From: Corynebacterium frankenforstense DSM 45800
GTDB lineage: Bacteria; Actinomycetota; Actinomycetes; Mycobacteriales; Mycobacteriaceae
Reading direction: 5' to 3'
DNA: 64,000 nucleotides
Assembly (NCBI RefSeq): GCF_001941485.1
Contig: NZ_CP009247.1
Coordinates: 992,001 to 1,056,000, forward strand
Shown here in pieces: positions 9,405 through 60,231 of the stretch (the stretch's first letter is position 1; every line of letters starts with the position of its first letter). The position numbers and the translations under genes were made by a program. A model generated the notes under the pieces. It saw nothing but the letters and a program-made list of their open reading frames with translations. It searched no databases and was not told the origin of the DNA.

Positions 9405-9448
9405 GCGCGACGTCGTCAATTGAACCCCGGATGCTTGACGACGCGCGC
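9405..9448. repeat. Inverted pair of the TTGACGACG dispersed motif
   Basis: One copy reads on the minus strand (9405-9420) and one on the plus strand (9434-9448). They face each other across 13 nt and can form a stem of about 14 bp with one bulge, just downstream of glgA. Confidence 0.75.
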
Positions 9449-9493
9449 GGCGTCGCCACGCTGCGACGCCTGGTGGGCGCCGTGCGGTGGGTG

Positions 9494-10690
9494 CTAGAGC
9501 AGCGACTCGTAGACGTCGACGGTCTGGCGGGCGATGGTGGCCCAGGAGAACTCCTCGATGGCGCGCTTGCGGCCGGCCTCGCCGTAGGCCTTCACCTTCT
9601 GCTCGTCGGCGGCCAGGGCGTTGACGGCCTCGGCGATGCCGTGCTCGAAGGCGGCGGCGTCGTTCTCGTCGTAGGGCACCAGGGTGCCGGTCTCGCCGTC
9701 GACGACGACCTCCGGGATGCCGCCGACGTTGGAGGCGACCACGGCGGTGCCGCAGGCCATGGCCTCGAGGTTGACGATGCCCAGCGGCTCGTAGATCGAC
9801 GGGCAGACGAAGATGTCCGAGGCCGACTCGATCTCCTGGATCTTGTCCTTGGACAGCATCTCGGAGACCCAGTGCACGCCGTCGCGGCCGGCGCGCAGCT
9901 CGTCGACGAGCTTCTGGGTGCGCTCGGCGATCTCCGGGGTGTCCGGGGCGCCGGCGCAGAGCACCAGCTGGATGGCCGGGTCGAACTCGCGGGCGGCCTT
10001 GACCAGGTGCTCGACGCCCTTCTGACGGGTGATGCGGCCGACGAAGGAGACGATCGGGCGGGTCGGGTCCACGCCGAGCTCCTTGAGCACCGAGGAGCCG
10101 TTCTCGGCCTCGGCCTCGTCGAAGGTGGGCCGCGGCTGCCACAGCTCGGTGTCGATGCCGTTGAGCACCACGTGGATCTTGTCCGGGTCGATGGCCGGGT
10201 AGGCCTCGAGGATCGAGCCCTTCATCTTATTCGAGACGGCGATGAGCGCGTCGGCGTTCTCCATGGCGTTCTTCTCCGACCAGGAGGAGACGTCGTAGCC
10301 GCCGCCGAGCTGCTCGCGCTTCCACGGGCGGTCCGGCTCCAGGGAGTGTGCCGTGGCCACGTGGGGGATGTCGTAGAGGCGGGCGGCCAGGTGGCCGCCG
10401 AGGCCCGCGTACCAGGTGTGCGAGTGCACCACGTCGACGCCGCCGGCCGCGTTGGCCATGCGCAGGCCGGTCGACAGGGTCTTGATGGCGGGGTTGGCCT
10501 CGGCCAGCTCCGGGTCCACGCCGTGGACGTAGGTGTCCGGCATGTCACGCTCGGCGCCCATGCAGTGGACGTCGACCGGAACGATCTCGCGCATGAAGCG
10601 GGTCAGCTCGGTCACGTGCACGCCGGCGCCGCCGTAGACCTCCGGCGGGTACTCGCGGGTCATCATCCCGACTCGGTTCAGTTTCGTCAT
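9494..10690 (-). CDS. glgA: Glycogen synthase / alpha-maltose-1-phosphate synthase (GT4)
   Basis: This GT-B glycosyltransferase uses ADP-glucose to extend or start alpha-1,4-glucan; mycobacterial relatives (GlgM) make maltose-1-phosphate. The 398-residue protein has the N-terminal REYPPEVYGGAGVHVTEL loop, DVVHSHTWYAGLGGH, the GRITRQKG phosphate-binding motif near residue 210 and the GT4 E-X7-E motif in YEPLGIVNLEAMACG near 310. The length matches actinobacterial GlgA rather than the longer GT5 enzyme of enteric bacteria. ATG 10690 follows a leaderless -10. It is divergent from glgC, giving a paired supply and use of ADP-glucose. Confidence 0.93.
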   Translation of the reverse strand: MTKLNRVGMMTREYPPEVYGGAGVHVTELTRFMREIVPVDVHCMGAERDMPDTYVHGVDPELAEANPAIKTLSTGLRMANAAGGVDVVHSHTWYAGLGGHLAARLYDIPHVATAHSLEPDRPWKREQLGGGYDVSSWSEKNAMENADALIAVSNKMKGSILEAYPAIDPDKIHVVLNGIDTELWQPRPTFDEAEAENGSSVLKELGVDPTRPIVSFVGRITRQKGVEHLVKAAREFDPAIQLVLCAGAPDTPEIAERTQKLVDELRAGRDGVHWVSEMLSKDKIQEIESASDIFVCPSIYEPLGIVNLEAMACGTAVVASNVGGIPEVVVDGETGTLVPYDENDAAAFEHGIAEAVNALAADEQKVKAYGEAGRKRAIEEFSWATIARQTVDVYESLL

Positions 10691-10697
10691 GACTACC

Positions 10698-10703
10698 AGC
10701 GTA
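10698..10703 (-). promoter_or_regulatory. -10 element of glgA (leaderless type)
   Basis: TACGCT on the minus strand, 7 nt from the ATG at 10690. Confidence 0.5.
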
Positions 10704-10901: not shown

Positions 10902-12119
10902 GTGAGGAGCCAACCAAATGTCCTGAGCATTGTCCTCGCCGGAGGCGAGGGCAAGCGCCTTTATCCCCTGACCGAAGACCGAGCGAAGCCCGCGGTTCCG
11001 TTCGGCGGCACCTACCGTCTCATCGACTTCGTGCTGTCGAACCTCGTCAACGCCGGCTTCATGAAGATCGCGGTGCTGACCCAGTACAAGTCGCACTCGC
11101 TGGACCGCCACATCTCGCAGGCGTGGCAGCTGTCCGGTCCCATCGACCAGTACATCGCTTCCGTGCCCGCCCAGCAGCGCCTGGGCAAGCGGTGGTACAT
11201 GGGTTCCGCGGACGCCATCCTGCAGTCGCTGAACCTGATCTTCGACGAGAACCCCGAGTACGTCATCGTCCTCGGCGCCGACCACGTCTACCGCATGGAC
11301 GTCGGGCAGATGCTCGATGACCACATCGCCTCGGGCAAGGCCTGCACCGTCGCCGGCATCCGCGTGCCGCGCCGCGAGGCCACCGCCTTCGGCTGCATCG
11401 AGGCCGACGACGACGGCACGATCACCGAGTTCCTGGAGAAGCCGGCCGACCCGCCCGGCACCCCGGACGACCCGGAGGTCACCTACGCCTCGATGGGCAA
11501 CTACATCTTCACCGCCGACGCGCTGGTGGAGGCCCTGCGTGCCGACGAGGACAACGAGGGCTCGGACCACGACATGGGCGGCGACATCATCCCCGCCTTC
11601 GTCTCGCGCAACGAGGCCCACGTCTACGACTTCTCGGGCAACGAGGTCCCCGGCGCCACCGACCGCGACCGCGGCTACTGGCGTGACGTCGGCACCATCG
11701 ACGCCTTCTACGAGGCGCACATGGACCTCATCTCCATCCACCCGGTGTTCAACCTGTACAACCACGCCTGGCCGATCCACTCGACCGAGCGCTCGAACCT
11801 GCCCCCGGCGAAGTTCGTGCAGGGCGGCATCGCGCAGTCGTCGATGGTCGCCTCCGGGTCGATCATCTCCGGCGGCACGGTGCGCAACTCCGTGCTCTCG
11901 AGCGACGTGCACGTCTCCGAGGGCGCGACGGTGGAGGGCTCCGTGCTCATGCCCGGCGTGCGCGTGGGCAAGGGCGCCGTGGTCCGCCACGCGATCCTGG
12001 ACAAGAACGTCCAGGTCCGCGAGGGCGAGATCATCGGCGTCGACCGCAAGCGCGACGAGGAGCGCTTCACGATCTCGGCCGGCGGCGTCGTGGTCGTCGG
12101 CAAGAACACGGTCGTCTAG
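10902..12119 (+). CDS. glgC: Glucose-1-phosphate adenylyltransferase
   Basis: This enzyme makes ADP-glucose from ATP and glucose-1-phosphate, the committed step of glycogen synthesis. The protein of 405 residues has the nucleotidyltransferase motif [29 protein letters not shown], the catalytic Asp in GADHVYRMD, and [13 protein letters not shown] left-handed beta-helix lies at the C-terminus. It is nearly collinear with the Corynebacterium glutamicum enzyme as I recall it, whose N-terminus also begins a few residues before [16 protein letters not shown] 10902 is chosen because of the -10 at 10889. A strong terminator follows. Confidence 0.95.
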
Positions 12120-12210: not shown

Positions 12211-12335
12211 ATTGACGACGCTCGCGCGGCGCGCGCAGGTGCGGAACGTGCGGTCGCGCGCAGGTGCGGAAGGCACGGCGCGCACGGACGGCGCGGGTCC
12301 CGCGCCCGGGCGCGTGGCACGCACCCGTCGTCAAT
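12211..12335. repeat. 125-bp segment bounded by inverted TTGACGACG motifs
   Basis: ATTGACGACG at 12211 and CGTCGTCAAT ending at 12335 form perfect 10-bp terminal inverted repeats around a GC-rich interior. The interior holds a direct repeat of GCGCGCAGGTGCGGAA. The segment fills the gap between the convergent ends of glgC and the methyltransferase gene. Confidence 0.7.
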
Positions 12336-13937: not shown

Positions 13938-13965
13938 GACCGCATCTGCGCAGCCCGCGCCGTCG

Positions 13966-13981
13966 ATTGACGACGCCGCGC
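13966..13981 (+). repeat. TTGACGACG dispersed motif copy
   Basis: ATTGACGACGCCGCGC sits in the sigE to anti-sigma gap, in plus orientation. Confidence 0.7.
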
Positions 13982-15426: not shown

Positions 15427-15442
15427 GCGCGGCGTCGTCAAT
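15427..15442 (-). repeat. TTGACGACG dispersed motif copy upstream of feoA
   Basis: GCGCGGCGTCGTCAAT, minus orientation, in the gap between tatB and feoA. Confidence 0.7.
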
Positions 15443-15468
15443 CCTGCGCGGCACATATTTTGAATGCT

Positions 15469-18085: not shown

Positions 18086-18616
18086 ATGCTGGTCCCGACC
18101 CACCCCGAGGCGACCGCCGACCCGGCGACACTGCGCTGGGTCATCCCGGACGGCCACCTCGGCTTCGCCGGCGACGTCGCCGGGGTGCCGGGCCTCCTGC
18201 AGGCCCTGCTCGACGACGGCACGCTCGCCCGCGTCGAGGTGCGCACCGACGCCGTCCTGACGACGCTCGCGCCCGGGAACGACTGGGCGGGGAGAGGTGC
18301 GGCCGTGCGCCGCGCGGTCACGGACGCATTGACGACGCCGCGCAGGTGGCGCCCTGCGTCCGACGCCCGTGCGACGGGCCCGGACGAGGTGCTCCGGAAC
18401 GCCGCGCGCGACGTCGCCGACGTGCGCCTCGGGCGCTACATCGCCTCCCACGGTGGGCGCTTCGAGGTCGTCGGCGTGCGCGACGGCGTGGTCGACGTCG
18501 CCCTGCGCGGAGAGTGCTCCGACTGCGCGGCCGCCGTGGTGACGATGCACGCCCGCTTCGAGCACCTGCTGCGCAGGCGCTGCCCGTGGCTCAAGGAGGT
18601 CCGCCGGGCCGCGTAG
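18086..18616 (+). CDS. Nfu/NifU C-terminal domain Fe-S scaffold protein
   Basis: The 176-residue protein ends in a NifU C-terminal (Nfu) domain. The conserved stretch is VDVALRGECSDCAAAVVTMHARFEHLL split near residues 135-160, with the CX2C pair that holds a bridging [4Fe-4S] cluster. Residues 1-55 resemble the N-terminal domain of NfuA-like proteins. The middle linker contains two copies of the dispersed TTGACGACG motif (18257 and 18328). Placement directly after feoB suggests that imported Fe(II) is linked to cluster assembly; this is inference. A long perfect terminator follows. Confidence 0.82.
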   Translation: MLVPTHPEATADPATLRWVIPDGHLGFAGDVAGVPGLLQALLDDGTLARVEVRTDAVLTTLAPGNDWAGRGAAVRRAVTDALTTPRRWRPASDARATGPDEVLRNAARDVADVRLGRYIASHGGRFEVVGVRDGVVDVALRGECSDCAAAVVTMHARFEHLLRRRCPWLKEVRRAA

Positions 18617-19980: not shown

Positions 19981-20523
19981 TCAGCCCTTGGTCGGCTCGG
20001 ACAGCTCGGAGGGGTGCTCCTGGTCGTCGGCCGCGGCGTCGTCAATCTTGGCCTCGATGCGGCCGAGGACGTCGTGCAGCTCCTCGAGCTCGCCGCGCAG
20101 GTAGTCACGCGAGACCATGTCGCCGACGGCGAGGCGCACGCCGGCGAGCTCGCGGGCGAGGAACTCGGTGTCGGCCTTCGTCTGCTCGGCGCGGCGCCGG
20201 TCGTTCTGCAGCGTGACCTTGTCGCGGTCCTCCTGGCGGTTCTGCGCGAGCAGGATCAGCGGGGCGGCGTAGGCGGCCTGGGTGGAGAACGCCAGGTTGA
20301 GCAGGATGAACGGGTAGGGGTCCCAGTTCCAGGCGAAGCCGCCGATGTTCAGGGCGATCCAGACGACCACGACGACGGTCTGCCACATCAGGTAGCGGCC
20401 CGTGCCGAAGAAGCGGGCGACCTTCTCGGCGACGGCGCCCACCGAGTCGTCGGTGATGTTGAACAGCCTGCGGCGCCCGGCGGCGACCGGGGTGTCCAGT
20501 GCGTTGCGCTCGGACTCAGCCAT
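19981..20523 (-). CDS. DUF1003 membrane protein
   Basis: The 180-residue protein has the DUF1003 core: RYLMWQTVVVVVWIALNIGG as one membrane helix, then WDPYPFILLNLAFSTQAAYAAPLILLAQNRQ, split over two more segments. A charged helical tail follows with DYLRGELEELHDVLGRIEAKIDD, probably coiled coil. Its start codon overlaps the stop of the upstream MgtE-like gene (ATGGCTGA), so the two proteins are translationally coupled and may act together. A dispersed TTGACGACG motif encodes IDDAA in the tail (20031-20046). Confidence 0.88.
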   Translation of the reverse strand: MAESERNALDTPVAAGRRRLFNITDDSVGAVAEKVARFFGTGRYLMWQTVVVVVWIALNIGGFAWNWDPYPFILLNLAFSTQAAYAAPLILLAQNRQEDRDKVTLQNDRRRAEQTKADTEFLARELAGVRLAVGDMVSRDYLRGELEELHDVLGRIEAKIDDAAADDQEHPSELSEPTKG

Positions 20524-22353: not shown

Positions 22354-23190
22354 ATGACGAATCCCCGAGGCACCACCGGCGCCGGCCGCCGGCCCCTGCG
22401 CGAGCGCCCCGCCGGCTGGCCGGTGGGCAGCTTCGACAGCTACGCCGACGCCCAGGAGGCGGTGGACAACCTCTCCGACCGCGAGTTCCCGGTGGACAAG
22501 CTGGTCATCGTCGGCGTCGACCTCATGGAGGTCGAGAGCGTGACCGGGCGCCTGACCTGGGGCCGCGTGCTCGCCGGTGGTGCCGCCTCCGGCGCGTGGA
22601 TGGGTATCTTCTTCGGCCTGCTCTTCGGGCTGTTCACGCCGAACGCCTTCTTCCTGCCGATCCTGGCGGGAATCGTCGTCGGCGCGATCTTCGGCATGGT
22701 GCTCGCCGCCGTGCCCTACGGGATGAGCCAGGGCGCGCGCGACTTCACCTCGCAGACCCAGATCGTCGCCGGCCGCTACGACATCCTCTGCGACCCGCAG
22801 CTGGCCCCGCAGGCCCGCGACGCCATCGCCGGGATGAACCTGGGCCACCGTGGCCGCGCCGGCCTGCCGCAGACCCCGGCCCCGGCCGCCACCGCCGGAC
22901 CGACCGAGCCCGCCGCGCCCCAGACCCCGGCGCCGGGCGCGCAGAACACGGGCGGTTGGGCCGGAGAGTCCGGCACCACCGCCCGCCCCGTGCACGACGA
23001 CGCCCCGATTGACGACGTCGCGCGTGACGACGTCCCGCGTACCGACGCCGTGGGCGGCGAGACCGTGCGTGGCGACGCCGTCCGTGGTGACGCCCCGATT
23101 GACGACGTCGCGCGTGACGAGGCTGCGCGTGAAGGTGTCGTGGGGGACGACACGGTGGGCGGCGACCCCGAGGCGGGTCGGCGGGACTGA
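22354..23190 (+). CDS. General stress protein with glycine-rich membrane domain
   Basis: The 278-residue protein has an N-terminal general-stress-protein 17M-like region (VGSFDSYADAQEAVDNLSD, residues 28-46; FPVDKLVIVGVDL). Two membrane helices follow, rich in glycine (ASGAWMGIFFGLLFGLFT; ILAGIVVGAIFGMVLAAV). The C-terminal 110 residues are a Pro/Ala then Asp/Arg repeat tail. The tail includes two in-frame copies of GDAPIDDVARD or DDAPIDDVARD, exactly 90 bp apart and both encoded by the dispersed TTGACGACG motif. AAGGAG 8 nt upstream supports ATG 22354. The gene lies at the mycobacterial Rv1234 position. Biochemical function is unknown. Confidence 0.82.
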   Translation: MTNPRGTTGAGRRPLRERPAGWPVGSFDSYADAQEAVDNLSDREFPVDKLVIVGVDLMEVESVTGRLTWGRVLAGGAASGAWMGIFFGLLFGLFTPNAFFLPILAGIVVGAIFGMVLAAVPYGMSQGARDFTSQTQIVAGRYDILCDPQLAPQARDAIAGMNLGHRGRAGLPQTPAPAATAGPTEPAAPQTPAPGAQNTGGWAGESGTTARPVHDDAPIDDVARDDVPRTDAVGGETVRGDAVRGDAPIDDVARDEAAREGVVGDDTVGGDPEAGRRD

Positions 23191-23216: not shown

Positions 23217-23975
23217 ATGCGCGCTGCCCGGAAGACCACCGCGGTCCTGGCCGGCCTGGCCACCATGGCAGGCCTGGCCGGCTGCACGAACGAGGCCACC
23301 CCCACCTACCTCGTCGGCGACGACGACGGCGAGGTGGTCATCCAGGTCTCCGCCGCCGACCCCGAGAACCGGGTGCTCGCGGAGATCTACCGCCGGGCGC
23401 TGGCAAGCGGCGACGTCCACGGCGTCGTCGAGACCGTCGACCCCGACTCCGAGCGTGGGAAGGCCGGCCAGCTCGAGTGGCTCGCCGACGGCGGCGCCGA
23501 CCTCGTCATCGGCTGCACCGGCCAGCTGCTCGCCGACGCCCAGCCCGAGGCCGCCGAGACGCTCGACGAGGAGTTCAACGCCGAAGAGGACTCCGACAAC
23601 CCCACCGCCGGCGACGCCGGCCAGCGCACCTATGACGCCCTGCTGGGCGCGCTGCCCGGCGATTACGACGTGCCCGATCCCTCGCCCGCCGAGGGCTGTT
23701 CGCAGGGCGCGGTGCCCGACGCCAAGGTGGACAAGGACGCATCGGGGGAGGGCGCGACGTCGGAAAGCGCGGGGGAGGCGCTGCCGCAGAACATCGTGCC
23801 CATCTACCGCAAGACGTCCGTCAACCGCTGGGGCAAGAAGGGCCTCAACGATCTGACGCGCCTGCTGACCACGCATGACCTGCAGGAGATGACCGAGCAG
23901 GTCGAGGACGGCGGGGAGCCCGACCACGTCGTCGGCGAGTGGCTCGGCGAGTCCAACTCCGACATGCTCGAGTAG
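23217..23975 (+). CDS. LpqZ-like lipoprotein with OpuAC-type binding fold
   Basis: The 252-residue protein has a lipoprotein signal peptide (MRAARKTTAVLAGLATMAGL) and the lipobox LAGC, so it is exported and lipid-anchored. The mature part shows the glycine-betaine/choline binding-protein pattern of OpuAC (ENRVLAEIYRRALASGD; GGADLVIGCTGQLL). No permease or ATPase gene is nearby. LpqZ stands at this place near kgd in M. tuberculosis. A low-complexity loop includes a TT(G/T)CCGACG-type motif copy at 23752. Ligand is unknown. A 19-bp hairpin terminator follows. Confidence 0.8.
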   Translation: MRAARKTTAVLAGLATMAGLAGCTNEATPTYLVGDDDGEVVIQVSAADPENRVLAEIYRRALASGDVHGVVETVDPDSERGKAGQLEWLADGGADLVIGCTGQLLADAQPEAAETLDEEFNAEEDSDNPTAGDAGQRTYDALLGALPGDYDVPDPSPAEGCSQGAVPDAKVDKDASGEGATSESAGEALPQNIVPIYRKTSVNRWGKKGLNDLTRLLTTHDLQEMTEQVEDGGEPDHVVGEWLGESNSDMLE

Positions 23976-29579: not shown

Positions 29580-29595
29580 GCGCGGCGTCGGAAAT
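29580..29595 (-). repeat. Dispersed motif variant before the aroE-like stop
   Basis: GCGCGGCGTCGGAAAT (the TTTCCGACG variant) lies just 4 nt beyond the aroE-like stop codon. Confidence 0.55.
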
Positions 29596-29599
29596 CGAA

Positions 29600-30443: not shown

Positions 30444-30570
30444 GAACATTCCGGGAGCCACCCGCGAACTCTCCGGGCGGTGCCGGTGTGCCGGGTCACA
30501 GGCGCATTCGGGGGTGCGGTGCGGCGCCTTGGGGGTGGCTCGGCGCCGGTGCCGGCGCCGCCGGGAGTCG

Positions 30571-30586
30571 ATTGACGACGTCGCGC
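30571..30586 (+). repeat. TTGACGACG dispersed motif copy
   Basis: ATTGACGACGTCGCGC, the best-conserved form, lies intergenically between the divergent aroE-like gene and the acidic-protein operon. Confidence 0.7.
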
Positions 30587-34147: not shown

Positions 34148-34859
34148 GGCGGGCGGCAACCCGCTGACCGGGTTCGCGCTCGCCGCGGCCGCCTGGCTGC
34201 TCGTCCTCGGGGTCAACCGGGCGTGGTTCTCGGCGGCCGTCGTCACGCTCGTCTTCGCCCACGCTGTACTGCGTGGGCGGGCGCGCACCGTCATCCCGGG
34301 CAGCCTGCTGGTCGCCGTGCCGGTCGCCGCCAGCGCCGCGATCATCCACATCCCCTTCGGCGAGCAGCGCGTGGCCCCCGGCATCACCCTCGACGGGGCG
34401 GCCGTGGCCGGGGTGCTGGGCCTGCGGGTGCTCGCGCTGGTGGCCGTCGTGATCGCCGCCGCTGCGGCCGCCGACGTTCCACGCCTGGCCGTGGCCATGC
34501 AGCAGGCCGGTCTCGGCGGCAAGCCCGCCTACCTGGTCGCCGGCGCCCTGCAGACCGTGCCCGAGGCCCGCGACGCCGCCCGCACCGTCGGCGAGGCCAA
34601 CCGCCTGGCCGGGCGCCGCGTCGGCGTGCGCACCGTGCTGCCGTGGACCGTGGTGCCGCTGGTCTCGCTGCTGATGACACGGGCGGTCGGTCGCGCAGGC
34701 GCCCTGGAGGCCGCCGGCGTGGGGCTCGCGGGAAAACGCACCACCTTCCGCCCGATTGACGACGTCCCGGGCGAGCGCGTGCTGCGCCTGTTCGCCGTCC
34801 CGTGCGCGGCGCTTGTGGTCGCCGCGGTGTGGGCGGCGCGTGCGGGGTGGTTGCCGTGA
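34131..34859 (+). CDS. ECF transporter transmembrane (T) component
   Basis: The 242-residue protein has four to five membrane segments (LTGFALAAAAWLLVLGV; AAVVTLVFAHAVLRG; VIPGSLLVAVPVAASAAI; LRVLALVAVVIAAAAAA). The cytoplasmic helix region carries the T-component ATPase-coupling motifs (ARDAARTVGEANRLAGRR; GRAGALEAAGVGLAG). The start is uncertain: GTG 34131 and 34134 are both in frame and overlap the S-component gene. A dispersed motif copy at 34755 encodes PIDDVPGE before the last helix. The stop overlaps the ATG of the ATPase gene (TGATG). Confidence 0.82.
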   Translation: MVPARRAGGNPLTGFALAAAAWLLVLGVNRAWFSAAVVTLVFAHAVLRGRARTVIPGSLLVAVPVAASAAIIHIPFGEQRVAPGITLDGAAVAGVLGLRVLALVAVVIAAAAAADVPRLAVAMQQAGLGGKPAYLVAGALQTVPEARDAARTVGEANRLAGRRVGVRTVLPWTVVPLVSLLMTRAVGRAGALEAAGVGLAGKRTTFRPIDDVPGERVLRLFAVPCAALVVAAVWAARAGWLP

Positions 34860-44553: not shown

Positions 44554-46307
44554 GCGTTCACCTCGATGACACGGTCGGCGGCGGCGATGAGCAGCGGGTC
44601 GTGGCTGGCGGCGACCACGGTCACCCCGTCGGCGGCGCGCCGGCGCAGCTGATCGATCATGACCAGCGCGTTCTCCTCGTCGAGGTGGGCGGTCGGCTCG
44701 TCGCAGACCATGAGCGCGGCGTCGCGTTCGAGCTCGCGGGCGAAGGCGACGCGCTGGCGCTGGCCGAGCGAGAGCCCGGAGGTGTCGCCCACCGACGCCG
44801 GATCCAGGACGGGACGCTGCGGCAGGTAGGAGACCCGCCGCCACAGCTCGTCGCGGTCGAGCACCTCGCCGCCGGACTCGACGTGGGCGGTGCCGGTGAC
44901 CCCGTCGGTGACGATGCCGAGCAGCGCCAGCAGCGCGGTCGACTTGCCGGCGCCGTTGGGCCCGGCGAGCACGGTCAGCGCGCCGGGCTCGGCGACCCCG
45001 CTCAGGTCGTGCGGGCGCGCACCGTCGCGGTCGGGCACCGTGAGGTGTGCGAAGACGACGCGCACGCCCTCGTCGGTTTTGCTTGACGACGTCCCGTCCG
45101 CCTCCGCGTGTGCGCTTCCCGCGCGGTCGGCGTGGGCGCCGGCGCCGGCGCCCACGCCGACGCCAGCGGCCCCGGCGTCGCCTTCGGCGCGGCCGGAATC
45201 CGTGTCCCCGGTGTCCGCGGCTCCCGAACCGGTGTCCGCGGAACCAGGCCGCGCGGCACCCGCCATGGCACCGCCGGCGAGCGCCCCGAGCACGGCGTCG
45301 GTGGCGGCCAGGCCGTCCTGGGCGTCGTGGAAGCGGGTGCCCACCTCGCGGATGGGGTTGTAGACCTCGGGCGCGATGACCAGGACGGTCAGTCCCGCGG
45401 CGAGGGTCATGTTGCCGTCGAGGAGGCGGAAGCCGATGCCGACGGCCATCAGCGCCACCGAGAGGGTGGCGAGGAACTCCAGCACGAGGCTGGACAAAAA
45501 CGCGATGCGCAGCACGGAGACCGTGGAGCCGGTGTGCCGGTCGGACAGGCGGCGGACCTCGGCGAGGGTGTCGCGCTGGCGGTCGACGGTGCGCAGGGTG
45601 GGCAGCCCGGCGATGAGGTCGAGCAGCTGGTCGGTCAGGACGGAGAGGTCGCGCAGGCGGCGCTCGGTGCGCCCGGCGGTCAGTGTCCCCACCAGCCACA
45701 TGAAGAAGGGGATGAGCGGGACGGTGACCAGGGCGATCAGAAACGACGGGGTGTCGAGCCACCAGACGACGGCGAGCATGACCGGGGTGGCGATCACGGT
45801 GCCGGCGAGCGCCGGCAGGAAGCCGGTGAGATACGGCCCGAGCCCCTCGATGCCGGTGCCCAGCGTGGTGCGCCAGGCGGCGCGGTCGACTCTGCGGGGG
45901 TCGGCCAAAGCGAGGCGCTCCAGTGCCTTCGCACGCAGATCGACGGTGACGGCAGCGGCTGCCCGGTGGGCGAAGCGGGACTGGGCGAAGGAGACCGTGC
46001 CGCGCACGAGGACGGCTGCGGCCAGCGCCCCGAGGTGCCCGGCCCAGGAGCTCAAGGGCCGCCCGGGCTGTTCGATCAGCCCGGCGGTGACCAGGCCGAC
46101 CATCAGTCCCATGACCACGGTGGCCACGGACTGGCAGGCGGTCAGGAGGCCCGCCACGCCGATCCAGCGCCGGGTGGGCGCGGACAGGCGCAGCAGGCGC
46201 GGGTCGACGGGCCCGCGCCGGGGCGCGGCGTCGGCGGCGTCGGGCAGGCCCGCGGGCCCGTCCACCGGTTCGGGGACGGGCTGGGCGGGGGCGACGCCGC
46301 GGCGCAC
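44550..46307 (-). CDS. cydD: ABC exporter subunit CydD
   Basis: The 585-residue partner of CydC has a membrane domain (residues 45-320; LLTACQSVATVVMGLMVGLV; LVTVPLIPFFMWLVG) and an ATPase domain with Walker A GPNGAGKST, LSLGQRQRVAFARELE and MVCDEPTAHLD. Between them stands a 70-residue Gly/Ala/Asp linker (ADTGSGAADTGDTDSGRAEG), encoding a copy of the dispersed motif on the opposite strand (45082). GTG 46307 starts one nucleotide after the cydB stop, so cydB and cydD are closely coupled. Confidence 0.9.
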   Translation of the reverse strand: MRRGVAPAQPVPEPVDGPAGLPDAADAAPRRGPVDPRLLRLSAPTRRWIGVAGLLTACQSVATVVMGLMVGLVTAGLIEQPGRPLSSWAGHLGALAAAVLVRGTVSFAQSRFAHRAAAAVTVDLRAKALERLALADPRRVDRAAWRTTLGTGIEGLGPYLTGFLPALAGTVIATPVMLAVVWWLDTPSFLIALVTVPLIPFFMWLVGTLTAGRTERRLRDLSVLTDQLLDLIAGLPTLRTVDRQRDTLAEVRRLSDRHTGSTVSVLRIAFLSSLVLEFLATLSVALMAVGIGFRLLDGNMTLAAGLTVLVIAPEVYNPIREVGTRFHDAQDGLAATDAVLGALAGGAMAGAARPGSADTGSGAADTGDTDSGRAEGDAGAAGVGVGAGAGAHADRAGSAHAEADGTSSSKTDEGVRVVFAHLTVPDRDGARPHDLSGVAEPGALTVLAGPNGAGKSTALLALLGIVTDGVTGTAHVESGGEVLDRDELWRRVSYLPQRPVLDPASVGDTSGLSLGQRQRVAFARELERDAALMVCDEPTAHLDEENALVMIDQLRRRAADGVTVVAASHDPLLIAAADRVIEVNA

Positions 46308-46308: not shown

Positions 46309-47367
46309 CTACCGCGCCTCGTTGACGACGTGGCGGGGCAGGGCGTCGGAAATCTCCACGTGGGCGTCCTCGGCGCGCAGGCGACGGGAGAAGACCCAGT
46401 AGGTCCAGCCCTGGTAGATGAGCACCAGCGGGGTCATGATCAGCGCGACCCAGGTCATGAACTTCAGGGTGTAGGGCGCCGAGGCGGCGTTCCACACCGT
46501 CAGCGACTCGCCTCCGGCGAGTGTGGTGGGCATGACGTCGGGGAAGAGCGAGCCGAAGAGCAGCGCGGTGCAGCAGAGCACGACCAGGCAGCTGAGCAGG
46601 AAGGCCCAGCCGTCGCGGCCGAGGTACATCATCGGGGCGGCGGCGAGCAGCAGCACGGCGGCGAGGACGGCCAGCGCCCAGGCCCAGGGCTCATTGGCGG
46701 CGATGAGCACGGTCCAGACCAGGAAGACCACGCCGCACACGGCGGTGACCGCGGCGACGGGCACGATGAAGCGCTGGGCGCGCTGGCGCACGACGCCGTC
46801 GGTCTTGAGGCGGATGAAGGTCAGGCCGTGGAAGACGAACAGGGCGGTGAAGGTCACCCCGCCCATCAGGCCGTAGGGGTTGAACACGGTCGCCAGGGCG
46901 GCGCCGGCGTCGAGGGAGTGGTCGGCCTCGAGCGGCAGGCCGCGGACGATGTTGGCGAAGGCGATGCCCCACAGGATGGCCGGGGCCCAGGAGCCGAAGG
47001 CCAGGCCGCGGTCGCACCAGCGCTCCCAGGCGGGGTCGGAGACCTTCTTGCGCCACTCGAGGGCGACGATGCGCACGATGAGGGCGACCAGGATGAGGAA
47101 CAGCGGGATGTAGAACCCGGAGAACAGCGTGGCGTACCACTCGGGGAAGGCGGCGAACATGGCCCCGCCGGCGGTGATCAGCCAGACCTCGTTGCCGTCC
47201 CAGACGGGGCCGATGGTGCCGACGAGGGTGTTGCGCTCGGCGCGGTTGCGGCCGATGAAGGGCGCGAGGATGCCGACGCCGAAGTCGAAGCCCTCGAGCA
47301 GGAAGTAGCCGGCGAAGAGCACGGCGATGAGGATGAACCAGATGACGGGAAGTTCGATGCCGAACAT
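46309..47367 (-). CDS. cydB: Cytochrome bd oxidase subunit II
   Basis: Subunit II of the quinol oxidase. The 352-residue protein begins with IELPVIWFILIAVLFAGYFLLEGFDFGVG (broken over residues 4-32) and contains GPVWDGNEVWLITAGGA, FPEWYATLFSGFYIPL and LIYQGWTYWVF near the end, all characteristic. Eight membrane segments are visible. The C-terminal tail (VEISDALPRHVVNEAR) is encoded by two dispersed motif copies (46321 and 46338), which suggests that the motif created this tail. AGGAGG upstream gives a strong ribosome site. Only 10 nt separate it from cydA. Confidence 0.95.
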   Translation of the reverse strand: MFGIELPVIWFILIAVLFAGYFLLEGFDFGVGILAPFIGRNRAERNTLVGTIGPVWDGNEVWLITAGGAMFAAFPEWYATLFSGFYIPLFLILVALIVRIVALEWRKKVSDPAWERWCDRGLAFGSWAPAILWGIAFANIVRGLPLEADHSLDAGAALATVFNPYGLMGGVTFTALFVFHGLTFIRLKTDGVVRQRAQRFIVPVAAVTAVCGVVFLVWTVLIAANEPWAWALAVLAAVLLLAAAPMMYLGRDGWAFLLSCLVVLCCTALLFGSLFPDVMPTTLAGGESLTVWNAASAPYTLKFMTWVALIMTPLVLIYQGWTYWVFSRRLRAEDAHVEISDALPRHVVNEAR

Positions 47368-48997: not shown

Positions 48998-49412
48998 TGT
49001 CAATCAGCCCCTTTACGTGAGCACGCTCCGGTTTCGATGAGAGACTTCACCGCCCGCCGGTCGCGTTGGCTGCGTTCACGTGCCCCCGGCACGCGGTGAG
49101 GGAAGGCGGAAGCGGCCGCAGGGGAGTGGTCGCGGGGCAGCCGGAGAATCTGCCCGGGTACCGCCGTCAATTACATTCAACCCAAAGTTGGCGGGTTAAT
49201 CGAATCCCGCGGTGGATACCTCACACGTCAGACTAGAACAGGGGTGAAAGGTCTCGTGTCGCCCGTCACTTCCGTGCGCAGGCAACTTTAGTTTCGATTC
49301 CGGTGATCTGCGGCTACGACCGGGCATGCGAAACTTACTTGAGTTGCGAAGGAACTCAACCAGGCCCCCGAAAGGGGGTGGAACAAAAATTGACGACGTC
49401 GCGGTGGTAGCC
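48998..49412. promoter_or_regulatory. cydABDC control region
   Basis: A 415-nt AT-richer gap without a gene. It contains a partial GlxR-like site CGGTGGATACCTCACA (49210-49225; only the TCACA half is good). A 7-bp inverted repeat TTGAGTT/AACTCAA with a 7-nt loop lies at 49339-49359. A short CCCCC/GGGGG hairpin at 49365-49378 may terminate the helicase gene. Redox or cAMP control of the bd oxidase is plausible from the position only. Confidence 0.45.
49389..49404 (+). repeat. TTGACGACG dispersed motif copy
   Basis: AATTGACGACGTCGCG stands 9 nt from the stop codon of the PLD-helicase gene. Confidence 0.7.
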
Positions 49413-52388: not shown

Positions 52389-52792
52389 GGGTGGGCGCCT
52401 TCAACCAGCAGACGCACGGCGGGCACATCGGCCGGGGCCCACTCCAGCTCCTCAAGGCGCTCGGGAGGCAGCCACGCGAGCGCTTGGTGCTCACTCAGCT
52501 GCGGCTCGGTCCCCTCCAGAGTGCAGAAGAAGGTAGTCAGCTCAACCACCGCAGTGCCGTAGTCATGCGCGGTCGTCGTCAATTTCTCTCCCACGCTCAC
52601 GCTGCAGGAAAGCTCCTCGCGCAGCTCGCGCGCCAATGCCTCCTGCGGGGCCTCACCAGGCTCAATTTTGCCGCCGGGGAACTCCCACAGGCCCCCCTGA
52701 GATTTGTGCGCCCCGCGCTGGGCGGCCATGACAGTGCCATCGCGGACGATGACCGCGCCGGTGACGCGGATCGGGTCAGTGGCCATTCCCAT
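52385..52792 (-). CDS. MutT-like Nudix hydrolase
   Basis: A 135-residue Nudix hydrolase of the 8-oxo-dGTP diphosphatase kind. The Nudix box is GGKIEPGEAPQEALARELRE followed by ELS, with all catalytic Glu residues; the late Gly is Ser. The start ATG 52792 has AAGGAG 9 nt upstream. Its stop overlaps the GTG of the PLD-helicase (GTGA), and no other gene is in the unit, so the helicase depends on its translation. It may clean the nucleotide pool or act on a signal nucleotide for the helicase. One motif copy (52567) lies inside, encoding KLTTTAH. Confidence 0.88.
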   Translation of the reverse strand: MGMATDPIRVTGAVIVRDGTVMAAQRGAHKSQGGLWEFPGGKIEPGEAPQEALARELREELSCSVSVGEKLTTTAHDYGTAVVELTTFFCTLEGTEPQLSEHQALAWLPPERLEELEWAPADVPAVRLLVEGAHP

Positions 52793-54450: not shown

Positions 54451-56844
54451 ATGAGCATAACCGAAAACGCCGCCGGCGGCGAGAATGCGCCGGAGAATGT
54501 GGATGAGTCGGTGAACCGGGAAGATTCGCGCGGTGTCGAGGCCCAGACCTCGGAGAACACCAGGGCCGCGGATCAGGCCGGGCAGACCGAGAACGACGAC
54601 GAGAAGAAGGACAGCGCCGCCGAGGGCGGCGCAGAGGCCGCGGCGGACGCGCACGTGGCGGAAGGGACGGCGTCGGAAAGCGACGGCGCGGAGGACATGG
54701 ACGACAAGGAACGCGTCGAGCAGGGCGCCGAGAACGAGAACGACGACGCCAAGGGCGCCGAGAACAAGGACGACGCCGCGCAGGACGCCGGCGCCGACGG
54801 GAAGACGGAAGAGAACACGGACGACAAGTCCGGCACGTCCGGTGCGGACGAGAAGTCCGAGAAGGACGACGAGAACGACAAGAACGACGACGCCCCGGGC
54901 TTCGACGCGCTGAGCCTGCCCGACGACGTCGTCGAGGCCGTGCGCAAGGTCGGCTTCGAGCAGCCCTCGGCGATCCAGCAGGAGACCATCCCGCTGCTGA
55001 TGCAGGGCCGCGACGTGGTCGGCCTGGCCCAGACCGGCACCGGCAAGACCGCGGCGTTCGCGCTGCCGATCCTGGCGCGCATCGACCGCTCGCAGCGCCA
55101 CCCGCAGGCCCTGGTGCTCGCGCCGACGCGCGAGCTGGCCCTGCAGGTCGCCGACAGCTTCCAGCAGTTCGCCGACCACCTCGGCGGCATCCACATCCTG
55201 CCGATCTACGGCGGGCAGGCCTACGGCATCCAGCTCGGCGGCCTGCGGCGCGGCGCCCACATCATCGTGGGCACCCCGGGCCGTGTGATCGACCACCTCG
55301 AGCGCGGCTCGCTGGACATCTCCAACCTGCGCTTCCTCGTCCTCGACGAGGCCGACGAGATGCTCAACATGGGCTTCCAGGAGGACGTCGAGCGCATCCT
55401 CGAGGACACCCCGGAGCACAAGCAGGTCGCCCTGTTCTCGGCGACCATGCCCAACGGCATCCGCCGGATCTCCAAGCAGTACCTCGACAACCCCGCCGAG
55501 GTCACCGTCAAGGCGGAGACCCGCACGGCCACCAACATCACGCAGCGCTGGCTGCACGTGGCCCACCGCAACAAGCTCGACGCGCTGACCCGCATCCTCG
55601 AGGTCACCGAGTTCGAGGCCATGATCATCTTCGTGCGCACCAAGTCGGAGACCGAGGAGGTCGCCGAGAAGCTGCGCGCCCGGGGCTTCTCCGCCGCCGC
55701 CATCAACGGTGACGTCGCCCAGGCCCAGCGTGAGCGCACCGTCGACCAGCTGCGCGACGGCCGCCTGGACATCCTCGTGGCCACCGACGTCGCCGCCCGC
55801 GGCCTCGACGTCGAGCGCATCAGCCACGTGCTCAACTTCGACATCCCCCATGACACGGAGAGCTACGTCCACCGCATCGGCCGCACCGGCCGTGCCGGGC
55901 GCACCGGCGAGGCCATCCTCTTCGTCACCCCGCGCGAGCGCCGCATGCTGCGCACCATCGAGCGGGTGACCAACGCGCCGCTGGCCGAGATGGACCTGCC
56001 GACCGTCGACGAGGTCAACGAGTCGCGCAAGTCCCGCTTCGCCGACTCGATCACCGAGTCGCTGGAGGACCCGCAGCTCGAGCTGTTCCGCGGCCTGGTC
56101 AAGGCCTACTCCGAGGCGCACGACACGCCGCTGGAGGACATCGCCGCCGCCCTGGCCACCCAGGCGCAGATCGGCGACGAGTTCCTGATGAAGGAGCCGC
56201 CGAAGGACGCCAGGCGCGACCGTCGGGACCGCCGCGACCGCGACCGTGACCGCGACCGGGGCGACCGCCGCGGACGCGGCCGCTTCGAGGCCGGCGAGGG
56301 CAAGGCGATGTACCGCATCGCCGTGGGCAAGCGCCAGCACGTGCGCCCGGGTGCCATCGTCGGCGCCCTGGCCAACGAGGGCGGGCTGAACTCCCGCGAC
56401 TTCGGCCGCATCTCGATCTTCGGCTCGCACTCCCTGGTGGAGCTGCCCGAGGATCTGCCGGGCGAGGTCTTCGAGCGCCTGGAGGAGACCCGCATCTCCG
56501 GCCAGCTGATCAACCTCGAGCGCGACACCGGCCGCCCGCCGCGTGACCGCGACCGCGACAACTACCGCGACCGGGGCCGTGGCCGGCGCGACGACCGCCG
56601 GGGCGGTCACCGCGACCACCACGACCGCCGTGGCGGGCACCGTGACGACCGTCGTGACGACCGGCGTGGCGGCTACCGGGACCGCGATGACCGCCGTGGC
56701 GGTTACCGCGACCGGGACGACCGTCGGGGTGGCCACCGTGGCGGCAACCGGGACCGTGACGACCGACGCGGCGGCTACCGCGACCGGGACGACCGTCGGG
56801 GCGGCCACCGGGGCGGCAACCGAGACCGTCGCGACCGCTGGTAG
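54451..56844 (+). CDS. deaD: DEAD-box RNA helicase (DeaD/CsdA type) with acidic and RGG tails
   Basis: The 797-residue ATP-dependent RNA helicase probably acts in ribosome assembly and RNA decay. An acidic tail (residues 1-145, Glu/Asp/Lys/Asn-rich) precedes the core: Q motif FEQPSAIQQ, AQTGTGKT near 195, DEADE near 300, SAT near 330 and HRIGRTGRAGR near 475. A DbpA-type RNA-binding domain (MYRIAVGKRQHVRPGAIVGAL) lies near 620. About 100 residues of DRRGGYRDRD/GGHRGGNRD repeats end the protein. Opposite charges on the two tails could drive self-association. A dispersed motif copy lies in the acidic tail (54665). Confidence 0.92.
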   Translation: MSITENAAGGENAPENVDESVNREDSRGVEAQTSENTRAADQAGQTENDDEKKDSAAEGGAEAAADAHVAEGTASESDGAEDMDDKERVEQGAENENDDAKGAENKDDAAQDAGADGKTEENTDDKSGTSGADEKSEKDDENDKNDDAPGFDALSLPDDVVEAVRKVGFEQPSAIQQETIPLLMQGRDVVGLAQTGTGKTAAFALPILARIDRSQRHPQALVLAPTRELALQVADSFQQFADHLGGIHILPIYGGQAYGIQLGGLRRGAHIIVGTPGRVIDHLERGSLDISNLRFLVLDEADEMLNMGFQEDVERILEDTPEHKQVALFSATMPNGIRRISKQYLDNPAEVTVKAETRTATNITQRWLHVAHRNKLDALTRILEVTEFEAMIIFVRTKSETEEVAEKLRARGFSAAAINGDVAQAQRERTVDQLRDGRLDILVATDVAARGLDVERISHVLNFDIPHDTESYVHRIGRTGRAGRTGEAILFVTPRERRMLRTIERVTNAPLAEMDLPTVDEVNESRKSRFADSITESLEDPQLELFRGLVKAYSEAHDTPLEDIAAALATQAQIGDEFLMKEPPKDARRDRRDRRDRDRDRDRGDRRGRGRFEAGEGKAMYRIAVGKRQHVRPGAIVGALANEGGLNSRDFGRISIFGSHSLVELPEDLPGEVFERLEETRISGQLINLERDTGRPPRDRDRDNYRDRGRGRRDDRRGGHRDHHDRRGGHRDDRRDDRRGGYRDRDDRRGGYRDRDDRRGGHRGGNRDRDDRRGGYRDRDDRRGGHRGGNRDRRDRW

Positions 56845-57601: not shown

Positions 57602-58279
57602 TCAGCGGGGCAGCGCCGCGCCCAGTCCGCCGAGGCGGCACGCCCCGCGCATCGCCGCCCGGTCCGCCCGGGAGAGCGCGAGCCCCCAGCGCGCCGCGAC
57701 CGCCGCGACGCGGCGCGCGTACCAGCAGCGCGCCCGCGGGGCCTCGGGCAGCCACTCGGCGGGCAGCTGGTCCGACTTGTCCCGGTTGGCGGCCTTCGAG
57801 GTGGCCACGAGGTTGACCGCGTCGTTGGCGAAGGCGTGGCGGGTGCGGGTGTCCCAGGCGTGCGCGCCCATGTCCCAGGCGGCGGCCAGCGGGAAGACGT
57901 GGTCGATCTCGACCTCGTCGGTCGCCGCGAGCGCCTCGCCGGTGTAGGGGTCCTGACCGGCCCCGGCGAGCAGCCGGCAGGTCGCCTCCTCGGCGTGCAC
58001 GTCCTCGAACTGCGCGGCGATGACCGCCTGGCGGGTGGTGCACCCGCCCGGTTGCGCGGCCCACCCGGCGCCGAAGGCCTCGCGGGTGTAGCCGGGCAGC
58101 TCGGGGCGGGCGTCGAGCACGACGACGGCCGCGAGGGAATCGCCCAGGGCGGGCAGCGGGACGTCGTCAAGCGTCTCGTAGGGGCGCAGCCACGGCCACG
58201 CGGTGGCGGCCAGCGCCCAGGCGGTCAGGACGAGCAGGATGCGGCGCAGCCAGCGCGCGGGGGTCTCACTGAGGGGCAC
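57602..58279 (-). CDS. Exported HNH endonuclease (DUF1524 type)
   Basis: The 225-residue protein has an N-terminal membrane anchor or signal (WLRRILLVLTAWALAATAWPW, residues about 10-30). The catalytic core of the GmrSD/DUF1524 HNH kind reads VEIDHVFPLAAAWDMGAHAW, then FANDAVNLVATSKAANRDKS. The Asp-His of the first part and the Asn-rich second part are the metal and catalytic residues. Exported nucleases of this form are common in actinobacteria and may degrade extracellular DNA. The motif copy at 58156 encodes LDDVPLP just after the signal. GTG 58279 is the best start. Confidence 0.82.
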   Translation of the reverse strand: MPLSETPARWLRRILLVLTAWALAATAWPWLRPYETLDDVPLPALGDSLAAVVVLDARPELPGYTREAFGAGWAAQPGGCTTRQAVIAAQFEDVHAEEATCRLLAGAGQDPYTGEALAATDEVEIDHVFPLAAAWDMGAHAWDTRTRHAFANDAVNLVATSKAANRDKSDQLPAEWLPEAPRARCWYARRVAAVAARWGLALSRADRAAMRGACRLGGLGAALPR

Positions 58280-58390
58280 ACCCGGTTAGACCGCGGGTGC
58301 GCGCCGCGCGGTTCCTGCGGGCGCGGCCCCGGCGCCGAAAAGCCGGGCGCCGGAGGACCGGGCGCCGGGCACGTGAGCTGGGGGAGGGAC

Positions 58391-59962
58391 TTAAGCCTCC
58401 AGGCGCCGCCCGGCCTCGGCGATGTCGACGTCCGGGTCGGACTCGGCGATCTCGGCCAGCTTCGAGGCGCGCTCGAAGTCGGACTGCACCTCGGCGGAGG
58501 GGGCGCGGGTGACGCTCGAGACGATCCAGGTCACCAGCGCGGCCGCCGCGAAGCCGGGCACCATCTCGTAGATCGTGCCGGAGAGCGCCTCGACCGAGCC
58601 CCAGACGAAGGATACCACGGCACCGGTGACCATGCCGGCCAGGGCGCCGGCGGTGTTGAGGCGCTTCCAGTAGAGGCTGAAGAGCATCAGCGGGCCGAAG
58701 GCGGAGCCGAAGCCCGCCCAGGCGAAGGCGACCAGCCCCAGGATCGAGTCATTGGGGTTGACAGCGAGTGCGGCGGCGACCACGGAGACGGCCACGACCG
58801 CGGTGCGCGAGAGGTTGACCAGCACCATCTCCTCGGGGCGCTTCTTCAGGAAGATCGTCATCAGGTCCTCGATCAGCGAGGAGGAGACGACCAGCAGCTG
58901 CGAGCTCATCGTGGACATGATCGCGGCGAGCACCGCGGTGAGCACCAGGCCGGCGATCAGCGGGTGGAAGAGGATGCGGCCCATGTCCAGGAAGATCGTC
59001 TCGAAGGCCTCGCGGTCGGTCACCGCGATGTCCGGGTTCTGGGAGAAGAACACGGTGCCCACGGTCGCGGTGGCCAGCGCGCCGAGCACGCACAGGCCCA
59101 TCCAGAGGATGCCCCACATGCGCCCGCGGCGGGCCTCGGAGGGCCGGCGCAGCGCCATGTAGCGGATGACGATGTGCGGCTGGCCGAAGTAGCCCAGGCC
59201 CCAGGCCAGGTGCCCGATCAAGGTGGCCACGGAGACGCCGGTGAACATGGAGAAGAACTCGGGGTTGCCGGTGCCGTCGGTCCACGGGCCGTAGTCGTGC
59301 TCGGTGGCCCAGGTGAAGATGTCGGCGGGGTTGTCCAGGGTCAGCAGCGCCATGGTGGGCACGAGGATCAGGGCGAGGAACATGATCAGGCCCTGGACGA
59401 CGTCGGTGTAGGAGACCGCCAGGAAGCCGCCGATGAAGGTGTAGGCGACGGTGACGGCGGCGACGATGATCATGCCGGTCAGGTAGTCGCCGCCGAAGGT
59501 GGCCTCGAAGTAGCGCCCGCCGGAGACCATGCCGGAGGAGACGTAGAAGGTGAAGAACAGGATGATGATCAGCGCGGCCGTCACGCGCACCGAGCGGGTG
59601 TGGTCGCGCAGCCGGTTGCCGAAGAAGCTGGGCAGCGTGATCGAGTTCTGCGCGATCTCGGAGTAGCTGCGCAGCCGGGGTGCCACGATCGACCAGGAGA
59701 CGAAGCTGCCGATGAGCAGGCCGACGGCGATCCACAGCTCGGAGAGGCCGGAGACGAACAGCGCGCCGGGCAGGCCCATCAGCAGCCAGCCGGACATGTC
59801 CGAGGCGCCGGCCGAGAGCGCGGCGACGAACGGGTTCAGGCCGCGGTCGCCGAGCACGTAGTCGTCGTACTTGCTGGTGTGCACGTAGGACCAGTAGCCG
59901 ATGGCCAGCATGGTGAACATGTAGATGACGATGGCTATGACGAACCACGTCGACTCGGTCAT
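58391..59962 (-). CDS. putP: Sodium/proline symporter
   Basis: PutP imports proline with Na+. The 523-residue protein has thirteen membrane segments and the family motifs SKYDDYVLGDRGLNPFVAALS, ASDMSGWLLMGLPGALFVSG, FLAVSYTDVVQGLIMFLAL and SSQLLVVSSSLIEDL. The Asp in ASDMSGW is the Na+-site residue. ATG 59962 is preferred; upstream in-frame starts include GTG 59968 and 60016. CATAAT at 60005-60010 on the minus strand could be its -10. A proline-type permease gene lies 4 kb away. Confidence 0.95.
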   Translation of the reverse strand: MTESTWFVIAIVIYMFTMLAIGYWSYVHTSKYDDYVLGDRGLNPFVAALSAGASDMSGWLLMGLPGALFVSGLSELWIAVGLLIGSFVSWSIVAPRLRSYSEIAQNSITLPSFFGNRLRDHTRSVRVTAALIIILFFTFYVSSGMVSGGRYFEATFGGDYLTGMIIVAAVTVAYTFIGGFLAVSYTDVVQGLIMFLALILVPTMALLTLDNPADIFTWATEHDYGPWTDGTGNPEFFSMFTGVSVATLIGHLAWGLGYFGQPHIVIRYMALRRPSEARRGRMWGILWMGLCVLGALATATVGTVFFSQNPDIAVTDREAFETIFLDMGRILFHPLIAGLVLTAVLAAIMSTMSSQLLVVSSSLIEDLMTIFLKKRPEEMVLVNLSRTAVVAVSVVAAALAVNPNDSILGLVAFAWAGFGSAFGPLMLFSLYWKRLNTAGALAGMVTGAVVSFVWGSVEALSGTIYEMVPGFAAAALVTWIVSSVTRAPSAEVQSDFERASKLAEIAESDPDVDIAEAGRRLEA

Positions 59963-60067
59963 ATGCACGGGGGATGCCTCTCCGGTGGCGTACAGATCGT
60001 CGTCATTATGTCGCACAAGTCACTTCCAGGGAAATAATTCACTCATGTCTCCCCGGTGATGGGTGTG

Positions 60068-60231
60068 CTTGACGACGCCCCGGTGCGCGCCGTGGGCGCG
60101 CCCCACCCGTGGCAGCGGGGCACCCGTCTTCGCGCGGCACCCGGCCGTGGCCGCGCAGCGGCCCGCCCGCCACCGGGGCGCGCCCCACCCGTATTGGGTG
60201 CACCGACGCTGCGCTGCGCGGCGTCGTCAAT
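60068..60231. repeat. 164-bp segment bounded by inverted TTGACGACG motifs
   Basis: CTTGACGACGCC at 60068 and GGCGTCGTCAAT ending at 60231 form 11-bp perfect inverted ends. Inside are two direct copies of GGGCGCGCCCCACCCGT (near 60088 and 60177). The segment lies between the divergent putP and SNF2 genes and has no coding capacity I can support. Its architecture resembles a miniature inverted-repeat element. Confidence 0.7.

Follow-up and report, generated by a model that had tools for sequence, protein, structure and literature searches.

What does a short DNA motif do that recurs throughout a stretch of bacterial chromosome, in both orientations and both inside and between genes? The stretch in question, referred to here as the window, comprises 64,000 nucleotides of Corynebacterium frankenforstense DSM 45800 (contig NZ_CP009247.1, positions 992,001 to 1,056,000), and a first-pass annotation, made from its letters alone, had listed 28 copies of a motif with the core TTKMCGACG and likened them to uptake signal sequences (USS) or to repetitive extragenic palindromic (REP) elements. 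We found this motif across the whole genome and, in related forms, across most of the genus. From the pattern of its occurrence we conclude that it is probably a DNA uptake sequence (DUS) of Corynebacterium, that is, the dialect of one species serving as the self tag of a natural transformation system.

Abundance and anatomy of the motif

In the window, the exact 14-mer TTKMCGACGYCSCG occurs 20 times against 0.04 expected (the largest count in 100 shuffles was 1), and the 9-mer TTKMCGACG 29 times against 2.6 (largest shuffle, 7). The 9-mer is present at 26 of the 28 positions listed earlier; on reading the sequence, 18257 and 56928 lack it, and three exact copies had been overlooked, at 4587 (+), 12095 (-) and 26871 (+). 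Over the whole genome, a single contig of 2,604,152 bp, there are 609 exact copies of TTKMCGACGYCSCG (297 forward, 312 reverse) and 2 of its reversed control (0 and 2). Detailed work was carried out on a sample of 859 kb, a third of the genome, made up of the window and 40 evenly placed stretches. A weight matrix recovers 301 copies in this sample, as opposed to 5 in a sequence of the same length simulated with an order-5 Markov model, which extrapolates to about 900 in the whole genome, and motif words head every list when 8-, 9- and 10-mers are ranked against an order-5 Markov expectation. The dispersed motif of the first-pass annotation is thus real, and words in hundreds to thousands of copies, far over expectation, are also a trait of DUS and USS. 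A second set of enriched words in the sample, TGCCGCTG/CTGCCGCT, GAGGCGCT, AGCGACTC, TCGCGCAG and ATCGCGAT, stands 2 to 5-fold over the order-5 expectation.

The 301 copies yield the consensus c-G-(A/C)-T-T-(GA/GC/TC)-C-G-A-C-G-(C/T)-C-(G/C)-C-G, in which the two variable bases of the core (K and M) are not independent. The spacer dinucleotide that they form is mostly GA, GC or TC, and TA (TTTA) occurs in 1 of the 301 copies, in none of the 92 intergenic copies and in none of the 29 window 9-mers. A weaker, GC-rich second half follows at about +18 to +29 and is present too in the intergenic copies alone; beyond about 30 bp, copies have little sequence in common. The consensus is asymmetric and not palindromic, which sets it apart from short palindromes such as the highly iterated palindrome HIP1.

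Excess as DNA and placement in the genome

According to gene calls from a simple purpose-made gene finder, by which 86% of the sample is coding, 206 of the 301 copies lie in genes, 92 are intergenic and 3 span gene edges, and motif density is 2.7-fold greater in intergenic than in coding DNA. The first-pass annotation had named, as an outcome that would undo its claim, an explanation by codon strings, whereby the motif would be an artefact of Ile/Leu-Asp/Ala/Ser-Asp-Val/Ala peptides that are frequent in a GC-rich genome. The reading frames lend this some support, with 141 of the 206 coding copies in the single sense frame that encodes such peptides. However, 62 others are antisense in two further frames (3 lie elsewhere), and the intergenic copies and their higher density also speak against it. 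Moreover, when synonymous codons were permuted across the sample with all proteins kept (30 shuffles), the 117 coding 14-mers fell to 7.1 and the 189 coding copies of the 9-mer core to 55.1. As the shuffles remove most copies, the motif is in excess as DNA, its long form most of all, and is not a peptide artefact, an explanation that we reject as scarcely credible. Presence both in and between genes, with excess as DNA, is likewise a trait of DUS and USS.

With the origin assumed at coordinate 0 and the terminus at the midpoint, 159 copies are on the leading and 142 on the lagging strand, showing no preference for orientation within replichores. Their spacing is more even than random, the ratio of variance to mean in 85 bins of 10 kb being 0.65 (p 0.007 by simulation), and none of these bins is empty where 2.6 would be expected. 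Equal use of both strands and an even spread are further DUS and USS traits. Chi and FtsK-guiding sequences are biased to one replication strand, and a signal of either type was rejected for want of such bias.

Neighbouring copies within 150 bp form 29 pairs (two of them overlapping hits), of which 17 converge, 1 diverges and 11 are tandem. Four converging pairs with a gap of 3 bp fold as hairpins of -22.6 to -29.7 kcal/mol, two of them just behind gene ends, one between divergent genes and one inside a gene. The stable hairpins, the two pairs behind gene ends and the raw count of intergenic copies next to a gene end (42 of 65 within 28 bp of it, uncorrected for intergenic length) would suit copies that act as transcription terminators or mRNA hairpins. 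We consider this role very improbable given that the majority of copies lie within genes, that most have no close partner, that a T-run stands behind only one of 7 folded pairs, and that the other two tight pairs are placed between divergent genes and inside a gene.

Two local departures in copy distribution were also observed. From about 1.30 to 2.03 Mb (L028-L039), 12 stretches of 20 kb contain 6 intergenic copies, compared with 86 in the remaining 29 sampled pieces (619 kb; raw counts, uncorrected for intergenic length). At 1175801-1176001 (L026), four tandem minus-strand copies, 57 to 69 bp apart, lie in coding DNA and perhaps represent an internal protein repeat.

Dialects across the genus

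The genus set consisted of 242 genomes of 1.6 to 3.8 Mb, including the window genome, with relatives denoted by G handles. Strong excess in this lineage only had been named beforehand as support for an active dispersed element. This holds for the exact word TTKMCGACGYCSCG, which is expanded only in the window genome (609 copies, with no more than 90 in any of the 241 others). It does not hold for the motif family, members of which occur over most of the genus. Alignment over samples gives the common core GMTTNNCGAYGNC, and TTKMCGACGYCSCG is one dialect of the family so defined. Word counts in samples of eight relatives placed TTATCGACG words at or near the top in G041, G025, G224, G212 and, with a weaker signal, G014; the corresponding words were CTTGTCGACG, CTTGACGACG and CTTGCCGACG in G149, CTT(TG/TC/GA/TT)CGACG in G070, and GCTT(GC/GT/GA)CGAT and CTTATCGATG in G027. 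The word CTTATCGACGCC reaches up to 487 copies among the 242 genomes and has 1 in the window genome. Species dialects around a common core are also characteristic of DUS and USS.

The CGACG form of the core, GCTTNNCGACG, was called enriched where it had 180 copies or more and its count was 3 or more times that of the reversed control. It passes in 171 of the 242 genomes, with a median of 1090 copies against 67 for the control, and strand totals over these genomes are 91,999 forward and 92,100 reverse. Counts of the CGATG form, GCTTNNCGATG, stay below 150 in 217 genomes and range from 150 to 223 in 11; the remaining 14 genomes, with 490 to 1337 copies, are those counted as enriched. One or the other is strongly enriched in 184 genomes, with a single form in 183 of these and both in G024. 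The other 58, in which neither searched dialect is enriched at the thresholds used, include intermediate cases such as G032, G156 and G185 (211 to 223 CGATG copies). Outside the genus, CTTATCGACGCC does not rise above 3 copies in any of 387 genomes of the order (the search covered 397, including 10 from the genus itself), and GCTTNNCGACG, the form searched there, reaches the enrichment level in none of 67 outgroup genomes, remaining at or below 1.7 times its control.

Synonymous shuffles in the eight relatives place the 11-mer core 5.9 to 13.6-fold over shuffled coding DNA, and the variance-to-mean ratio of spacing is below 1 in 7 of the 8 samples (no significance test). In a single phage, BFK20, for which the host dialect was assumed, we found 1 copy of GCTTNNCGACG against 1.1 expected and 2 of CTTATCGACG, the latter with no expectation. 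Two relatives showed other repeated words as well. The G041 sample (L077-L086) holds 17 to 19 copies of overlapping words, among them TAAGCGGAAG, TCCGCATAAG and GACTTTCATT, from a longer repeat that is in part palindromic and may be a CRISPR array or a dispersed repeat; in the G025 sample (L107-L116), AT-rich and other words, e.g. TGTAAAAAAT and TCAGGCAGAT, each number 10 to 24 and may stem from another repeat.

Origin of the copies

The closest relative of the window genome by ComEA is G014 (63% identity), and in a tree of ComEA and ComEC the two split off together with a support of 100. Copies of the window genome that could be aligned to the G014 sample number 22, all in genes. Sixteen of them are ungapped and differ by substitutions only, each copy by 1 to 7 and all together by 69 in 256 bases (27%, vs 24% over the aligned stretches), and one copy is retained in G014 with a single difference; the 6 gapped copies are irregular in the length and place of the gap. 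With 16 of 22 ungapped, the motif does not look like an inserted repeat, and judging by the alignments substitution seems to be the main source of coding copies and their turnover seems rapid, which is the expectation for biased gene conversion and not for transposition.

A mobile or REP-like repeat inserted many times would also be dispersed, in both orientations and with some inverted pairs. For coding copies this origin is largely contradicted by the G014 alignment and was rejected, and the little sequence that copies share past about 30 bp speaks against it as well, such that we regard it as highly implausible. The likening to REP elements therefore fails. That class, including bacterial interspersed mosaic elements (BIME), is palindromic and intergenic, whereas 206 of the 301 copies here lie in genes, only 29 pairs are found among them, and most alignable copies differ by substitution alone.

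Competence and pilus genes

In the window genome, comEA lies directly upstream of comEC (2,019,976 to 2,022,074) and encodes a protein with SLBB and helix-hairpin-helix domains. A tad/flp locus at 296,301 to 301,623 encodes TadA (T2SSE), two T2SSF-like proteins, one of them under the Pfam cut-off, a Flp-like protein (Pfam DUF4244) and a pair of small pilin-like proteins that match no Pfam family; it is our reading of the sequences that assigns the names Flp, TadE and TadF to the small proteins. The tad/flp, comEA and comEC frames are all open. Competence and pilus genes thus occur in the same genome as the motif, as they do in bacteria with DUS or USS, and transformation in another actinobacterium, Micrococcus luteus, relies on Tad/Flp pili and a comEA/comEC gene set according to PMC6370729. 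For the receptor there are only candidates, namely ComEA and the small pilin-like proteins encoded at the tad locus.

ComEA matches were found in 239 and a ComEC domain in 241 of the 242 genus genomes, and the presence of ComEC, tried as a predictor of the motif, consequently had no power. The TadA proteins of the 58 dialect-negative genomes, compared with that of the window genome, comprise 35 at 47 to 54% identity, 1 genome with no match and 22 at 56% or more, and all 22 motif-rich genomes tested (14 of the CGATG dialect and 8 picked from the 171) have a TadA of at least 55% identity. This pattern is probably a clade split; it fits a clade without the system and was not used as proof. In a tree of ComEA and ComEC from 22 genomes, the CGATG dialect appears on several branches, and many nodes are poorly supported, so that the number of dialect switches was left uncounted. 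In G014, tadA (near C1:297889-298913) and the ComEC domain each match in two separate pieces with seemingly broken frames; together with the weak motif signal of this genome, this may indicate a decaying uptake system, or else sequencing errors.

Probable uptake recognition and its main rival

Most of the computable properties of a DUS are found here, including excess over expectation, use of both strands, even spacing, excess as DNA, dialects and machinery. Peptide strings, REP elements and Chi-like signals each fail a defining test, and we therefore prefer recognition during uptake as the most likely function, which makes the earlier likening to uptake signal sequences the best-fitting one. 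By function the motif would accordingly be a DUS, with its membership of the class provisional, and we infer both the uptake and the receptor.

A serious rival, to which we assign a distinctly smaller likelihood, is that the motif is the target of a cytoplasmic protein that binds or modifies DNA chromosome-wide, such as a nucleoid organiser, a Chi-like hot-spot or a methylase-linked word of the HIP1 type. An even spread of hundreds of copies over coding and intergenic DNA would be in keeping with a structural or modification site, no other family of words dominates the genome sample as the motif does, and the failure of ComEC presence to track it also fits. Cyanobacterial HIP1, an 8 bp palindrome, is very abundant and widespread in coding DNA, as the Corynebacterium motif is, but the latter is asymmetric, longer and divided into dialects. 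The near-equal use of leading and lagging strands likewise speaks against a cytoplasmic target, and dialect differences, together with the lack of both searched dialects in 58 of 242 genomes, seem unusual for a site of chromosome structure.

Several observations weigh against a function in uptake. The 58 dialect-negative genomes are one of these. As ComEC is present in 241 of 242 genomes, motif-poor ones included, its presence does not track the motif, and three motif-poor genomes examined closely keep comEA and comEC open. Since 36 of the 58 have a distant TadA or none, clade and function are inseparable in this comparison, and no clear receptor candidate emerged when the Tad pilins of 18 loci were compared by eye across dialects. 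Known DUS are depleted in foreign DNA, and no such depletion is apparent in foreign-looking genes of the window genome. Its least codon-typical genes are not motif-poor. Copies are scarcest in the genes of highest codon adaptation, densities from the lowest to the highest quintile being 0.467, 0.436, 0.365, 0.138 and 0.085 per kb; this gradient speaks for an uptake sequence but would also fit any weakly selected DNA motif. Of the samples from the eight relatives, 6 show a lower motif density between genes than within them, and converging and diverging pairs are few, with 4 of each kind; the intergenic enrichment and the converging, hairpin-forming pairs of the window genome therefore do not clearly recur. 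In addition, the alignment on which the origin of copies is based covers coding copies only, and a report of natural transformation in Corynebacterium was not found among titles and abstract openings of the open-licence literature of PubMed Central (PMC).

If the motif is a DUS, an exposed protein, either ComEA or one belonging to the Tad/Flp pilus, would bind GMTTNNCGAYG in free DNA; our guess for the binder is one of the small pilin-like proteins that the tad operon encodes at its end. The pilus would then draw tagged DNA through the mycolate outer layer, ComEC would import one strand, and recombination would swap the homologous chromosomal stretch for the imported DNA. Were tagged fragments taken up more often, copies could build up by uptake-biased gene conversion wherever protein constraint is weak, and drift of receptor preference could lead to drift of dialect. 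With a little less confidence than we have in the motif as a DUS, we think it reasonably likely that most species of Corynebacterium can be transformed naturally and identify their own DNA through genus-specific GMTTNNCGAYG, read by a Tad/Flp-pilus protein, with dialects forming partial species barriers.

Copies and neighbouring genes within the window

In window coordinates, the intergenic copies are AATTGACGACGTCGCG at 9406..9421 (-) and 49388..49403 (+), GATTGACGACGCCGCG at 13965..13980 (+) and 15428..15443 (-), GATTTCCGACGCCGCG at 29581..29596 (-), GATTGACGACGTCGCG at 30570..30585 (+), and a converging pair formed by GCTTGACGACGCCCCG at 60067..60082 (+) and AATTGACGACGCCGCG at 60217..60232 (-). 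The copy at 9406 forms a diverging inverted pair with a core 9-mer at 9435..9443 (+), which falls under the weight-matrix threshold. Two more pairs converge, namely AATTGCCGACGTCCCG at 41202..41217 (+) with GCTTGCCGACGTCGCG at 41356..41371 (-), and a core 9-mer at 46322..46330 (+), again under the threshold, with GATTTCCGACGCCCTG at 46339..46354 (-), which lies in a gene.

Within genes, copies in sense orientation are GCTTTCCGACGTCGCG at 4585..4600 (+), GATTGACGACGCCGCG at 20032..20047 (-) and GCTTGACGACGTCCCG at 58157..58172 (-), and those in antisense are GCTTTCCGACGTCGCG at 23753..23768 (-), GCTTGCCGACGCCCAG at 26869..26884 (+), GCTTGCCGACGTCCCG at 33011..33026 (-), GCTTGACGACGTCCCG at 45081..45096 (+), GCTTTCCGACGCCGTC at 54666..54681 (-) and a copy one base off the core at 3184..3199 (-; weight-matrix score 24.4). 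Genes also contain CATTGACGACGCCGCG at 18327..18342 (+), GATTGACGACGTCGCG at 23007..23022 (+) and 23097..23112 (+), GATTGACGACGTCCCG at 34754..34769 (+), the variant GCTTCTCGACGTCGCG at 61189..61204 (+; score 25.1), and degenerate copies at 18208..18223 (+; 17.5) and 31365..31380 (+; 18.0). A further degenerate copy at 23022..23037 (+; 22.2) overlaps that at 23007..23022. Weak copies consisting of the core 9-mer only are found at 12095..12103 (-), 12212..12220 (+), 12326..12334 (-) and 52574..52582 (-).

A gene for a FeoB-type iron transporter (15952-18075, +; 2.1 kb) is without any scored motif copy. Its best match among six loci in the genome collection, from which its own genome was perhaps excluded, is in Actinomyces vulturis (66% identity), which suggests horizontal transfer of this gene; none of the six is from Corynebacterium. 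When plasmids were searched for distant DNA matches to 8 kb of the window, Corynebacterium was neither among the ten genera named nor among the best 10 of 77 records.

Comparison with known uptake sequences and significance

The DUS of the Neisseriaceae are non-palindromic and stand on both strands, in and between genes, traits that the Corynebacterium motif shares. Further resemblances, as far as the relevant parts of PMC3630211 describe that family, are a word of about 10 to 12 bp in about a thousand or more copies per genome, and species dialects around a conserved core, with some genomes of the clade having none; most of the DUS genomes named there have about 1900 to 5900 copies, compared with our median of 1090. 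The motif differs from Neisseriaceae DUS in its unrelated sequence, in the two variable bases within its core, in its occurrence in an actinobacterial genus and not a proteobacterium, and in being known here from sequence alone; Corynebacterium also has Tad/Flp pilus genes in place of the type IV pilus and its minor pilin ComP.

The second half of the Pasteurellaceae USS is AT-rich, unlike the GC-rich one here, and sequence, phylum and machinery differ as well. The excerpts of PMC12616744 and PMC5217627 that deal with USS point to a likeness in copy number (about a thousand), in a strong core followed about 20 bp on by a weaker second half, and in hairpin-forming inverted pairs, the last as seen in the window genome. 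These hairpin pairs are reminiscent of Haemophilus terminators, which contain USS pairs as described in part of PMC5217627; for three Corynebacterium genomes, the same portion of that source names only CRISPR-related pairs. Micrococcus luteus is likewise an actinobacterium with Flp pili and genes of the ComEA/ComEC type, and the sections of PMC6370729 on its transformation mention no uptake sequence, in which it differs from the system proposed for Corynebacterium. Nothing relevant on an uptake motif of this kind in Corynebacterium or Actinobacteria was found among titles and abstract openings of the open-licence PMC literature.

If the motif is indeed a DUS, uptake sequences would for the first time be known beyond two proteobacterial families, and would have arisen independently in bacteria that possess a mycolate outer membrane. 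Corynebacterium bears a mycolate outer layer, and all three groups with uptake sequences would then have in common a layer that resembles an outer membrane. With a third, unrelated case, this one in Actinobacteria, independent inventions could be compared, which would bear directly on why uptake sequences evolve. Corynebacterium is usually handled by electroporation; this industrially and medically important genus may be naturally transformable once DNA carries the right tag, and its dialects would predict gene exchange between species.

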